Assembly (NCBI RefSeq): GCF_001096185.1
Contig: NZ_CRPU01000010.1
Coordinates: 1-64,000, forward strand
Direction of reading: 5' to 3'
Source of the DNA: Streptococcus pneumoniae
GTDB lineage: Bacteria; Bacillota; Bacilli; Lactobacillales; Streptococcaceae
Length of the DNA stretch: 64,000 nucleotides
Below are positions 3,352 through 61,084 of the stretch, piece by piece. A model generated the notes under the pieces. That model did not search any database and was not told the DNA's origin. It saw only the letters and a program-made list of their open reading frames with translations. The number at the start of each line of letters is the position of its first letter. Position 1 is the stretch's first letter. The position numbers and the translations under genes are program-made.

Positions 3352-3390
3352 TATTTTATTGAATCAGATAGGCTTTAGAGCCTTGATATT

Positions 3391-3427
3391 AAGCACTTTG
3401 GGGCGCTTTCCCTTAGTGCTTTTTTTG
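3391..3427 (+). terminator. rpsD terminator
   Basis: AAGCACT (3391) pairs with AGTGCTT (3415-3421), followed by a run of seven T. It is a standard Rho-independent terminator. Confidence 0.85.
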
Positions 3428-3465
3428 TTTTTACAATAGCTTTTAAGCATACAGCTATAAGTATC

Positions 3466-55205: not shown

Positions 55206-55451
55206 TTATTTCAATTGATCTGTAATGTCTTTTGATAGCAACATTCCCAGATGATACGTTTTATTGATATAAGCAATGACATCATTGATATTTTCAGTCG
55301 TGTGAATTTTTTCTTTGATGTCAGCCCTAAATGTTTCATCCTTCAACAGTTGTTCTTGGTAGAGTATTTGAAGTCGTTCTTTTTCGTACTTATTGAGCAG
55401 AAAAAGGAAAACCAAGCTAATCACAACGAGGATATAAGCATATTGGCTCAT
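55206..55451 (-). CDS. Small hypothetical membrane protein
   Basis: This 81-residue protein starts MSQYAYILVVISLVFLFLL, one N-terminal helix, then a long charged helix (NKYEKERLQILYQEQLLKDE) and a C-terminal region. The start is set by GGGAG on the minus strand. It lies downstream of the structured repeat array that follows argS. The family is unknown. Confidence 0.65.
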   Translation of the reverse strand: MSQYAYILVVISLVFLFLLNKYEKERLQILYQEQLLKDETFRADIKEKIHTTENINDVIAYINKTYHLGMLLSKDITDQLK

Positions 55452-55588
55452 AGGAAATCTCCCTGTATGATAAAGAAGTAGTAGTGAGTAGATTGAATTA
55501 GTCAATTCAAAGTAGCAGAGCAAGTTAGCAAAACTTGTTAAGATCTTTGATAGACTTCTAAACTAAAATCCGTATAGGCTTTAGTGTA

Positions 55589-56076
55589 AGTTACTTAGAT
55601 TACTTTGCAATCAAGTAATTTAAAATATTACGACATGAAACAAACCAAATCGATATTATTTGGTTTGATGAATTAGTAAATCGTTTAGGCAAGTGTCCCT
55701 GATTACGACGTCATGGCTCCTGAATCGATTATATTTAGGGACCATGACTAGTGAAGCAGTTAGCTAGTCCGCATATAAGCGCGGCTAGCGTCTAACAATT
55801 AGGAACTTTAGTTCCAATAACTTTAAGATTACGACGTTGTAGGACATAAATCGATCATATTTATGTCACAGAACTAGTGAAGCGCCTAGCCAAATACCTG
55901 ATAAGATTTGGCGTTAGTTACTTAGACTATTTTACAATAAAGTGATCAAAAGATTACGACATGAACCTAACCAAATCGATATTATTTGGTTAGGTGAATT
56001 AGTGAAGCGTTTAGGCAATTCGCCATATAGCGATTGCCGTCAAGAGACTAGGAACTTTAGTTCCAGTCTCTTGTAA
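55589..56076. repeat. Tandem array of structured hairpin units, possible RNA or mobile hairpin element
   Basis: The 629-base gap between the small gene and argS contains four units starting at 55628, 55701, 55827 and 55952, the complete ones about 125 bases apart. Each begins GATTACGAC, then has a hairpin whose loop is CGAT plus NAT. The arms differ between units but always pair: CAAACCAAAT/ATTTGGTTTG, GACATAAAT/ATTTATGTC, CCTAACCAAAT/ATTTGGTTAGG. A conserved TAGTGAAGC follows, then a second hairpin, for example GCCAAAT/ATTTGGC, and a third hairpin of two alternating types. Unit 1 is truncated. The strand that acts is not clear and no open frame is present. Confidence 0.75.
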
Positions 56077-56080
56077 CGAT

Positions 56081-57772
56081 TTACATCTTCTCTGGCGCCT
56101 CTACTCCAAGCAAGCGAAGGGCTTCTTTGAGAACGACTGCGGTTGCGTAGCTGAGGGCTAGACGGCTGTCGCGTTCTGGACTTTCATCCAAGATACGTGT
56201 ATGTGCATAATATTTGTTGAAGGCTTGAGCCAGGCTAATTGCAAATTTAGCAATGATAGAAGGTTCAAAGTTATCCGCCGCACGGTTAATAATACGTGGG
56301 AAATCTTGGATGAGTTTGATGATTTCCCAACTTTCAGCATCATTCAAGCTATAGTTACCAGCAGTTTCTGGTTTGAAATCTGCTTTGCGCAAGATAGATT
56401 GGATACGAGCGTAGGCGTATTGAACGTAAGGTCCAGTTTCTCCCTCGAAGGACACCATAGCCTCTAGGTCGAAGTCGTATCCATTTGTACGGTCGGTCTT
56501 GAGGTCATAGAATTTAATGGCTCCAACTCCAACAGCATGTGCTACCTGATCTTTGTTTTCAAGTTCAGGATTTTTAGCTTCGATTTGGGCTTTGGCACGA
56601 CTAATGGCCTCTGCGACAGTAGGCTCTAGCAAGATGACATTCCCTTTACGCGTAGAGAGTTTTTTCCCTTCTTTTGTAACCAAACCAAAAGGAACGTGAG
56701 TAATGTCGTCACTCCAATCGTAGCCCATCTCTTGCAAGACAGCTTTGAGCTGTTTAAAGTGGGCAGATTGCTCTTGACCAACTACGTAGATAGATTTGGC
56801 AAATTGGTATTCATTTTTACGGTAAAGGGCTGCAGCCAAGTCACGTGTGATATAGAGAGTAGCACCATCAGACTTCTTGATGAGGGCTGGATGTTCAATT
56901 CCATATTTCTCAAGATTCACAACTTGGGCACCTTCTGATTCAACAAGAAGGCCTTTTTCAGAAAGAATGTCTACAACGGCATCCATCTTATCGTTGTAGA
57001 AGGCTTCTCCGTTGTAGCTGTCAAATTCGACTTGTAATTCATTGTAAAGTCGGTTAAATTCCACCAAACTTTCATCACGGAACCATTGCCAAAGTGCGAG
57101 AGCTTCCTCGTCTCCATTTTCAAGCTTACGGAACCATTCGCGTGCTTCTTCATCCAAGCTAGGGTCATTTTCAGCCTCAGCATTGATGCGGACATAGAGT
57201 TTAAGAAGTTCATCGATTGGATGAGCTTTTACAGCTTCTTCGTCGCCCCATTTTTTGTAGGCCACAATCAACATCCCAAACTGTTTACCCCAGTCTCCCA
57301 AATGATTGACCTTGACTGTTTGATAACCGATTTTTTGGAAAATATGTGATAAGCTATCTCCGATGACAGTTGAGCGCAGATGACCAATAGAGAATGGTTT
57401 AGCGATATTGGGACTAGACATATCGATAACAACATTTTCTTGTTTACCAATATTTTGATCAGCATAGTGTTCTTTTTCAGTGATAACAGCTTGCAATACT
57501 TGAGCAGAAATGGCAGATTTATCAAGGAAAAAGTTAACGTAAGGTCCTGTTGCAACAACCTTTTCAAAGGCTTGGCTGTTAATTTTTTCAGCCAGTTCAG
57601 CTGCGATCATTTGAGGTGCTTTACGTTCGACTTTTGCAAGAGAAAAAGCAGGGAAAGCAATGTCTCCCATTTCTGAGTTTTTAGGGGTTTCCAGTAAATT
57701 TAAAATAGCCTCTTGGTCTAGGCTATCAATGACGCTAGCCAATTCGCTAGCAATCAATTCTTTTGTATTCAT
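56081..57772 (-). CDS. argS: Arginyl-tRNA synthetase
   Basis: This class I synthetase (563 residues) charges tRNA-Arg. The N-terminal Add-1 domain is followed by the HIGH-type motif [16 protein letters not shown] and the C-terminal DALR helical domain ([16 protein letters not shown] onward). The KMSKS position reads KKLSTRKGN, as usual in ArgRS. It is divergent from argR, 134 bases apart. A long hairpin at 56044-56075 lies 6 bases after its stop, without a T-run. Confidence 0.97.
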
Positions 57773-58353: not shown

Positions 58354-58403
58354 GGTCTTGGGAGTTGCTCTCAAGACTTATTTTTGACAAGGAGAGACGG
58401 ACA

Positions 58404-60938
58404 ATGGCGACAGAAAAGCTATCACCTGGCATGCAACAGTATGTGGATATTAAAAAGCAATATCCAGATGCTTTTTTGCTCTTTCGTATGGGTGATTTTT
58501 ATGAATTATTTTATGAGGATGCGGTCAATGCTGCGCAGATTCTGGAAATTTCCTTAACGAGTCGCAACAAGAATGCCGACAATCCGATTCCTATGGCGGG
58601 TGTCCCCTATCATTCTGCCCAACAGTACATCGATGTCTTGATTGAGCAGGGCTATAAGGTAGCCATTGCTGAACAGATGGAAGATCCTAAACAAGCAGTT
58701 GGGGTTGTGAAACGAGAGGTTGTTCAGGTTATTACGCCAGGGACAGTTGTCGATAGTAGTAAGCCGGATAGTCAGAACAATTTCTTGGTTGCCATAGACC
58801 GTGATGGCAGTCAATTTGGCCTCGCTTATATGGACCTAGTGACGGGTGATTTTTATGTGACAGGTCTTTTGGATTTTACGCTGGTTTGTGGGGAAATCCG
58901 CAATCTCAAGGCTCGAGAAGTGGTGCTGGGTTATGACTTGTCTGAGGAAGAGGAGCAAATCCTTAGTCGTCAGATGAATCTGGTACTTTCCTATGAAAAA
59001 GAAGGCTTTGAAGACCTTCATTTACTGGATTCACGATTGGCAGCTGTGGAGCAAGCTGCATCTAGTAAATTACTCCAGTATGTTCATCGGACCCAGATGC
59101 GGGAATTGAACCACCTCAAACCTGTTATCCGCTATGAAATTAAGGATTTCTTGCAGATGGATTATGCGACCAAGGCTAGTCTGGATTTGGTTGAGAATGC
59201 TCGTTCAGGCAAGAAGCAGGGCAGTCTTTTCTGGCTTTTGGATGAAACCAAGACAGCTATGGGAATGCGGCTCTTGCGTTCTTGGATTCATCGCCCCATG
59301 ATTGATAAGGAACGAATTATCCAACGTCAGGAAGTGGTGCAGGTCTTTCTCGACCATTTCTTTGAGCGCAGTGATTTGACAGACAGTCTCAAGGGTGTTT
59401 ATGACATTGAGCGCTTGGCTAGTCGGGTTTCTTTTGGTAAAACCAATCCCAAGGATCTCTTGCAGTTGGCGACTACCTTGTCTAGTGTGCCACGGATTCG
59501 TGCGATTTTAGAAGGGATGGAGCAACCTGCTCTAGCCTATCTCATCGCACAACTGGATGGAATCCCTGAGTTGGAGAGTTTGATTAGCGCAGCGATTGCT
59601 CCTGAAGCTCCTCATGTGATTACAGAAGGTGGCATTATCCGGACGGGATTTGATGAGACTTTGGATAAATATCGCCGAGTTCTCAGAGAAGGGACTAGCT
59701 GGATTGCTGAGATTGAGGCCAAGGAGCGAGAAAACTCTGGTATCAGTACGCTCAAGATTGATTATAATAAAAAGGATGGCTACTATTTCCATGTGACCAA
59801 TTCTCAACTGGGAAATGTACCTGCCCACTTTTTCCGCAAGGCGACGCTGAAAAACTCAGAACGCTTTGGAACTGAGGAATTAGCCCGTATCGAGGGAGAT
59901 ATGCTGGAGGCGCGTGAGAAGTCAGCCAACCTAGAGTATGAAATCTTTATGCGTATCCGTGAGGAAGTTAGCAAGTACATCCAGCGCTTGCAGGCTCTAG
60001 CTCAAGGAATTGCGACAGTTGATGTCTTGCAAAGTCTGGCGGTTGTGGCTGAAACCCAGCATTTGATTCGGCCAGAGTTCGGAGAGGATTCGCGAATTGA
60101 TATCCAGAAAGGGCGCCATGCTGTCGTTGAAAAGGTTATGGGGGCTCAGACCTATATTCCAAATACGATTCAGATGGCAGAAGATACCAGTATTCAACTG
60201 ATTACAGGGCCCAATATGAGCGGAAAGTCAACCTACATGCGCCAGCTGGCTATGACGACGGTTATGGCCCAGTTGGGTTCTTATGTGCCAGCAGAAAGCG
60301 CCCATTTACCGATTTTTGATGCGATTTTTACCCGTATCGGAGCAGCAGATGACTTGGTTTCAGGTCAGTCAACCTTTATGGTGGAGATGATGGAGGCCAA
60401 CAATGCCATTTCGCATGCGACCAAGAACTCTCTCATTCTCTTTGATGAGTTAGGTCGTGGAACTGCAACTTATGACGGGATGGCTCTTGCTCAGTCCATC
60501 ATCGAATACATTCATGAACATATCGGAGCCAAGACCCTCTTTGCGACCCACTACCATGAGTTGACTAGTCTGGAGTCTAGTTTACAACACTTGGTCAATG
60601 TCCACGTGGCAACTTTGGAACAGGATGGGCAGGTTACCTTCCTTCACAAGATTGAACCAGGGCCTGCTGATAAATCCTACGGTATCCATGTTGCCAAGAT
60701 TGCTGGCTTGCCAGCAGATCTCCTAGCAAGAGCGGATAAGATTTTGACTCAGTTAGAGAATCAAGACACAGAAAATCCTACTCCCGTGAGCCAAACAAGT
60801 GCTGTCACTGAACAAATTTCACTATTTGACACGCCTGCAGTGCATCCTATCCTAGCAGAATTAGCTAAACTGGATGTTTACAATATGACACCTATGCAGG
60901 CTATGAATGTCTTAGTTGAGTTAAAACAGAAACTATAA
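58404..60938 (+). CDS. mutS: DNA mismatch repair protein MutS (HexA)
   Basis: MutS (844 residues) binds mismatches and recruits MutL. The mismatch-contact motif [10 protein letters not shown] is near residue 30, the connector and lever domains follow, and the ATPase has Walker A (GPNMSGKST from about residue 602) and Walker B (LFDELGRGT). ATG at 58404 follows GGAGAG and gives the 844-residue length of pneumococcal HexA. The frame is intact, so the strain should not be a mutator at this locus. Confidence 0.97.
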
Positions 60939-61011: not shown

Positions 61012-61031
61012 AACATCACACAAACAGAATG

Positions 61032-61073
61032 AAAAGGAGCTGACGCATTGTCGCTCCCTTTTGTCTATTTTTT
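61032..61073 (+). promoter_or_regulatory. patA transcription attenuator
   Basis: AAAAGGAGC pairs with GCTCCCTTTT and is followed by a T-rich run, between the strong promoter and the patA start. In pneumococcus, disruption of a terminator-like attenuator here has been linked to raised PatAB and fluoroquinolone resistance. The stem is intact in this sequence. Confidence 0.78.
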
Positions 61074-61084
61074 AAGGAGAAAGT

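Follow-up and report, generated by a model that had tools for sequence, protein, structure and literature searches.

A tandem array of covarying hairpins ending on the argS stop codon of Streptococcus pneumoniae, and its relatives as a candidate family of small mobile repeats

In the window, by which we refer to the whole 64,000-nt stretch of Streptococcus pneumoniae DNA analysed here, four tandem units of a hairpin-rich repeat have been found beside argS, covering positions 55565-56083 on the (+) strand and ending on the argS stop codon. The compensating structure of these hairpins is real and beyond chance, and with moderate confidence we read the array, from sequence comparison, as a tandem cluster of a new non-autonomous family of mobile repeats (~125 bp) in Streptococcaceae. 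The family would most likely be of the same general kind as the BOX, REP and MITE repeats, membership in none of which has been demonstrated. As a structured repeat of Streptococcaceae the family appears to be unregistered; its covariation is unusually clear, and at nine core genes with roles in translation, as topoisomerase, as chaperone, in Fe-S metabolism and others it shows an exact stop-codon junction. No description of it has been found in the open-licence literature, as judged on titles and the start of abstracts.

The repeat unit starts with a hairpin, H1, which is followed by a three-way junction made of two further hairpins (H2, H3) and a closing helix (P), and it usually ends with TTA or TCA (Table 1). 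Written in full, the layout is TTA/CGAC-H1-TA-guide-P5'-TA-H2-GT-H3-P3'-..TTA/, with slashes for the unit boundaries, and H1 itself consists of ATTACGAC, a 16-nt arm, the 7-nt loop CGATNNN, the complementary arm and TAGTGAAGC. The start-to-start spacing of H1 in the argS array is 75, 126 and 125 bp, and the internal units of argS arrays lack the 3' strand of P and have degenerate right ends. The first-pass annotation of this DNA, made from the letters alone, had reported four tandem hairpin units with differing but paired stems and two alternating forms of the third hairpin, all of which are present in the sequence. Its treatment of the four units as comparable is correct for B, C and D and fails for the truncated first unit, A, which is degenerate (AATATTACGAC, TAGTAAATC) and folds on the (+) strand with a z-score of only -0.79 (36 of 200 shuffles as good). 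The core units had been placed correctly; a further linker remnant extends the array to the left (55565-55626), and its right edge is the argS stop codon.

Table 1. Features of the argS-side array and BOX elements in the window.
Feature	Position	Strand	Basis
Degenerate left remnant of the array, c-type linker, without intact H1	55565-55626	+	Direct repeat D3: 55565-55624 with 55892-55951, 73%
Unit A, H1; variable stem, loop CGATNNN	55627-55682	+	R1 match, 58.2 bits, E 3.2e-10
Unit B, H1	55702-55757	+	R1 match, 70.4 bits
Unit B, linker, H2 and H3; internal copy without P 3' strand	55758-55827	+	Sequence, fold
Unit C, H1; arms resemble a chimera of two stem types	55828-55883	+	R1 match, 66.6 bits; stem table
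Unit C, linker, H2 and alternative H3; internal copy without P 3' strand	55884-55952	+	Sequence, fold
Unit D, H1; tandem G.A mismatches in the stem	55953-56008	+	R1 match, 72.0 bits; stem table
Putative guide GTGA, can pair with TTAC left of H1 or with right-end TTTAC	56002-56005	+	Covariation, fold, shuffle tests
Three-way junction: P CGTT 56008-56011 / AACG 56075-56078; H2 56014-56038; H3 56041-56073	56008-56078	+	RNAfold of the unit; P helices in relatives; shuffle control
Right-end TTA of the array = argS stop codon TAA on the minus strand	56081-56083	+	Sequence, ORF list, junction count
argS (arginine--tRNA ligase), host gene abutted by the array	56081-57772	-	ORF; TIGR00456, 539.8 bits
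Four BOX elements (starts)	26207, 48781; 30367, 15773 (all in (+) coordinates)	+, +; -, -	Ends of the BOX consensus

According to the ORF list of the window, no ORF of at least 60 aa lies inside the array, which had been described as having no open frame. The promoter scan of the array has returned 5 promoter-like sites versus 2.7 expected (sd 1.8), so that the earlier wording, no clear promoter, stands. In the Rfam scan of the array no family has reached threshold, the only match at E<=1 being symR with 20 bits versus 61 needed, and a scan of four relatives (L107, L263, L258, L009) has given no family at its curated score. Like Rfam structured RNAs, the units combine a conserved secondary structure with covariation, but the array contains no family at threshold. 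A small minus-strand ORF at 55206-55523 (81-105 aa depending on the start) adjoins the array; many of the listed argS loci have a relative of this ORF bordering their array, and its 81-aa form in the window has no match in Pfam or NCBIfam.

Compared with dinucleotide shuffles, the (+) strand of units B, C and D folds with z-scores of -5.13, -3.30 and -7.89, and 0 of 200 shuffles have been as good for each of them. As the minus strand also folds well (A -2.50, B -3.91, C -1.48, and for D -8.98 versus -7.89), the choice of strand is not settled by folding energy alone. The mismatch types in H1 favour the (+) strand of the array: counted on this strand over 1536 cells of 96 sequences, G.T occurs 73 times versus 35 for A.C, and A.G 73 times versus 9 for C.T, including the tandem G.A of the stem type of unit D. 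In a set of 28 distinct H1 sequences gathered over many strains, which like those behind the stem-type, guide and junction counts include related, non-independent sequences, 95.9% of the stem cells have been found paired versus 68.9% in shuffled sets and 28-47% in slid controls, the covariation score is 0.731 versus 0.194 (0 of 500 shuffles as high), and double-sided changes occur at 13 of the 16 stem pairs.

The part of the unit to the right of H1 is structured as well. A three-way junction has been seen in 11 of 16 hand-picked units, for which the printed RNAfold structures were judged by eye, the remaining ones being two internal units of the window, the lacE and metK units and one unit of genome G199. 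An automatic search has recognised strong junctions in 103 of 327 distinct right parts (115 including weaker ones), versus 0, 0, 3, 0 and 0 in five dinucleotide-shuffled sets of right parts, and a separate junction scan has found the junction in 123 of 337 units. The closing helices P differ wholly between lineages yet pair in each of them (CGTT/AACG, CGCC/GGCG, CAGT/ACTG, GTAGC/GCTAC, GTACC/GGTAC). Together with the double-sided changes in H1, these junctions bear out the view that the compensating changes mark a selected structure. The three-way junction goes beyond the first-pass annotation, as do the stop-codon junction and the sister loci described below.

A covariance-model search over streptococcal genomes, as had been proposed, has recovered relatives widely. 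The model, R1, was built on H1 and matches 191 of 295 Streptococcaceae genomes (E<=0.001), from 3 of 10 genera, with 30 copies in G199, 17 in G033 and 14 in G217 at the same threshold. In an order-wide sample, 24 of 198 genomes match (E<=1e-4), all of them belonging to the genus of the window; the sample covered 53 other genera, none of which has given a match. The genome of the window holds 8 matches, as counted from the 150 of 1275 first-look candidates that were scored: the four argS units, two units at prfC, one ahead of metK in its leader, and a weak match elsewhere (L108, E 0.007). A pattern search for H1 has given 67 of 284 genomes of the genus and, among GTDB contigs, 60 stretches, of which 59 are streptococcal (S. 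mitis, oralis, pseudopneumoniae, infantis, cristatus and others); 31 of these lie at the argS end and 25 at the prfC end, with 3 stopping before the gene is readable, and the argS-end loci number 32 once the window is counted in. The sixtieth match, in Sporosarcina (L055), has been taken as chance, its arms pairing poorly and its surrounding sequence being unrelated. The H1 pattern scan of IMG/VR viral contigs has given 0 matches, and phage and plasmid sequences searched with blastn have given none either.

Among strains, a small set of H1 stem types recurs (stem table), and because so few types recur, the proposal of a guide-like array is unsupported. Chimeric H1 stems and a shuffled order of modules among strains, together with internal units that have degenerate right ends, are what would be expected of a plain tandem satellite, in which template switching during replication and homologous recombination keep the hairpins of competent streptococci alike with no transposition. 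We regard this explanation as improbable, since it accounts neither for the dispersed single copies at unrelated genes, nor for the abutment of stop codons, nor for the guide and junction features that are conserved outside the palindromes.

The abutment of stop codons has been followed over the units with strong junctions, which were drawn from loci chosen for matching R1 or the H1 pattern. A triplet TTA, TCA or CTA is present within 8 nt after P in 97 of these 110 units and lacking in 13. Merging the 97 units by gene and leaving out three tandem-internal junctions results in 13 sites, and at 9 of them the right end coincides exactly with a stop codon, the triplet closing an ORF on the minus strand that is longer than 200 codons; these are argS, prfC, pheS, parE, nrdE, sufB, groL, a gene for a GlnQ-like ABC ATPase, and obg. 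The sites away from stop codons are the metK leader, the G199-type context, L138 and L247. When the G199-type copies are counted one by one (eight, of which seven come from G199 and one from G052), the proportion becomes 9 of 20, and in the strictest count, in which 12 non-tandem units without the triplet are added as misses, 9 of 32. As a background, 84 of 7065 such triplets in the window (1.2%) abut an open frame of at least 100 codons, a rate per triplet in the window and not per insertion. The stop codon of a gene follows its terminal unit, being TAA or TGA in argS and TAA, TGA or TAG in prfC, which suggests that the stop codon arrives with the repeat. At the lacE end of the same genome as the window (L009, 5680-5935, G000:C4), two 124-bp units of a second lineage have been observed; judged by eye, the unit boundary seems to lie 9 nt inside the end of the gene, in which case the final QFD codons and the stop of lacE would belong to the repeat, and lacE has been kept apart from the site counts.

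Loci that lack units inform about the state before their arrival. Of 20 argS loci read in other streptococci, which were chosen mostly where the alignment did not run on past the stop codon of argS and are thus biased to unfilled ends, R1 matches 2 and one (L332) carries a degenerate remnant. The remaining 17 of 17 unfilled ends read TTACAT, in the orientation of the array, and the sequence in front of it is unrelated to the units; the presence of TTAC at all of them indicates that the target predates the unit. Among 30 argS loci listed, many carry arrays. At metK, units occur in 9 of 30 loci, these being the ones listed out of 57 matching genomes, and G093 has three tandem units. In the genome of the window, the SAM-III riboswitch leader of metK contains one of the units (L107, 1440-1650, G000:C5). 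The unfilled metK leader of G121 (L263) matches SAM-III with 38.1 bits, where 45 is the gathering score, and the filled leader gives no SAM-III match at E<=0.1; the unit in this leader looks like an insertion.

These loci bear on the question of whether the units serve the host. Structured RNA of this kind would be a (+) strand transcript, acting as a small RNA or in antisense, or else it would terminate transcription from both sides where highly expressed core genes end, with selection keeping the helices. Such a role would agree with the strong covariation of H1, with the (+) strand bias of its G.T and G.A mismatches and with the 3 terminator-like sites at the array versus 0.5 expected. Furthermore, units recur at particular host genes in more than one genome (prfC in mitis-type loci and in G199, parE in G217 and G176, and, in four genomes each, the vicinity of parE/parC and of nrdF), a recurrence that could reflect ancient retention or host function. 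However, no clear promoter has been seen, the host genes are unrelated to each other, and the same genes are often without units, R1 being found in 9 of 30 metK loci and in 2 of 20 argS loci, the latter picked mostly as unfilled-looking. The insertion-like unit in the metK leader and the G199 copies dispersed away from stop codons point in the same direction, and we consider a host-serving RNA unlikely; if it were correct, a new class of structured RNA would be at hand. The family to which the regulatory RNA suggested by the first-pass annotation would belong is not confined to one gene.

Among the three meanings that had been offered there (regulatory RNA, guide-like array, hairpin-dependent mobile element), the mobile element fits best, supported by dispersed copies, empty sites and fixed junctions. 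Against this reading, many copies lie away from stop codons, the 13 strong units mentioned above do not have the expected triplet, the 3' strand of P is gone from the internal argS units, TTAC does not precede every H1, the minus strand folds about equally well, and the recurrence at particular host genes is also what a host function would lead one to expect. The junctions take the form TTA/CGAC...TTA/C, and in one relative the tandem units at metK meet at GCGAGTTA/C; insertion into TTA/C would keep the target at both ends, so that a second copy could insert alongside, and tandem arrays would be explained with no special machinery. In the proposed mechanism, the element would insert at TTA, the complement of TAA, and could thereby give the gene an equivalent stop codon and leave the protein unchanged. 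Both ends would remake the target, and further copies could stack as tandem arrays, which may later recombine.

The short segment between H1 and the junction offers a candidate for target recognition. These 4 nt, GTGA or GTAA, can pair with the left TTAC, giving a basal extension of H1, or with the right end, giving a basal extension of the junction. TTAC stands directly before H1 in 137 of 225 units. The pairing of the guide with the left target is nearly invariant across units, and for this reason left-side covariation has been dropped as evidence. For the right end, the mean pairing is 3.00 of 4 versus 2.57 when permuted (0 of 2000 permutations as high), in a set of 22 distinct combinations only. 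The unit would probably be recognised as a folded single strand in the array (+) orientation by a putative mobilising enzyme, and the guide may pair alternately with the left and the right TTAC, by analogy with IS608. As IS608 uses TTAC and base-paired guides (PMC5934647), the logic here resembles single-strand transposition. The units resemble IS200/IS605 elements (IS608) and their derivatives in their predicted folded single-strand ends, the TTAC at the left end and a short guide able to pair with the ends; the short fixed target in the left flank is present in those 137 of 225 units and at all 17 unfilled argS ends. Unlike in IS608, whose right end is TCAA, the guide here lies 3' of the hairpin and is seemingly common to both ends, the right end reads TTA(C) or TCA(C), and no Y1 transposase is linked.

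A link to the Y1 transposase (PF01797) has been rejected as unsupported. The enzyme is present in 12 of 17 copy-carrying genomes and absent from G033, G247, G176 and G265, with several copies each, as well as from G300, and in the 21 of 30 fetched Y1 loci that were scanned no credible H1 has been found, R1 giving only a 13-bit partial match. Across 92 loci, the 40 largest groups of neighbouring ORFs, inspected by eye, contain no recurrent transposase-like ORF and read as orthologous host genes or translated repeat DNA. If the family is mobile, it shows how a selfish element can occupy the ends of essential genes at no cost to them, some streptococcal gene ends (the stop codon TAA, TGA or TAG and the 3' flank) would have been written by a repeat, and a tractable system for single-strand target recognition would be available. 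A stronger version, in which the element homes to stop codons, its folded single strand carrying a guide that pairs in turn with the target and with its own end, so that it lands on essential genes, replaces the stop by an equivalent one and stacks copies, appears unlikely; it would represent a transposition logic whose choice of target is harmless by design.

Among the small repeats already described, BOX is one of those close to the mobile family considered here. The units could be thought of as a diverged member of the BOX-type repeats, i.e., of pneumococcal BOX or the BOX-like families of S. suis. The four window copies of BOX were recognised by the consensus ends ATACTC...GAGTAT, and such ends have not been seen in the units. 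None of the 8 R1 matches of the genome falls on these four copies, in line with the earlier statement that the array matches no BOX pattern. Like BOX of S. pneumoniae and S. suis (PMC3049150), the units are small, modular, intergenic and stem-loop forming, look mobile, have no known transposase and often provide the stop codon of a neighbour, BOX encoding it in 36 of 58 overlapping pneumococcal CDSs. The units differ from BOX in sequence and ends and possess a fixed H1, a three-way junction and a right end of TTA or TCA. We judge it improbable that they are diverged BOX-type repeats.

The REP sequences (GTAG and CGTC classes) share with the units short palindromes and a tag at one end, and those of the CGTC class are likewise without a known transposase (PMC3733652); the bottom strand of the units reads GTCGTAA after the stem. 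In contrast to the 16-bp stems and the three-way junction found here, CGTC REPs are reported with stems of 8-9 bp, in five phyla, Firmicutes not among them (PMC3733652).

Elsewhere in the window, Rfam matches have been obtained for the SpF01 sRNA (3353-3432), the SpR10 sRNA (58361-58407) and the patAB leader (61018-61074). In G033 (L214-L228) and G217 (L235-L240), most H1 copies have been found inside a longer dispersed repeat with GGAAAGTATC or a similar end, which has a different right half and is possibly a separate composite element.
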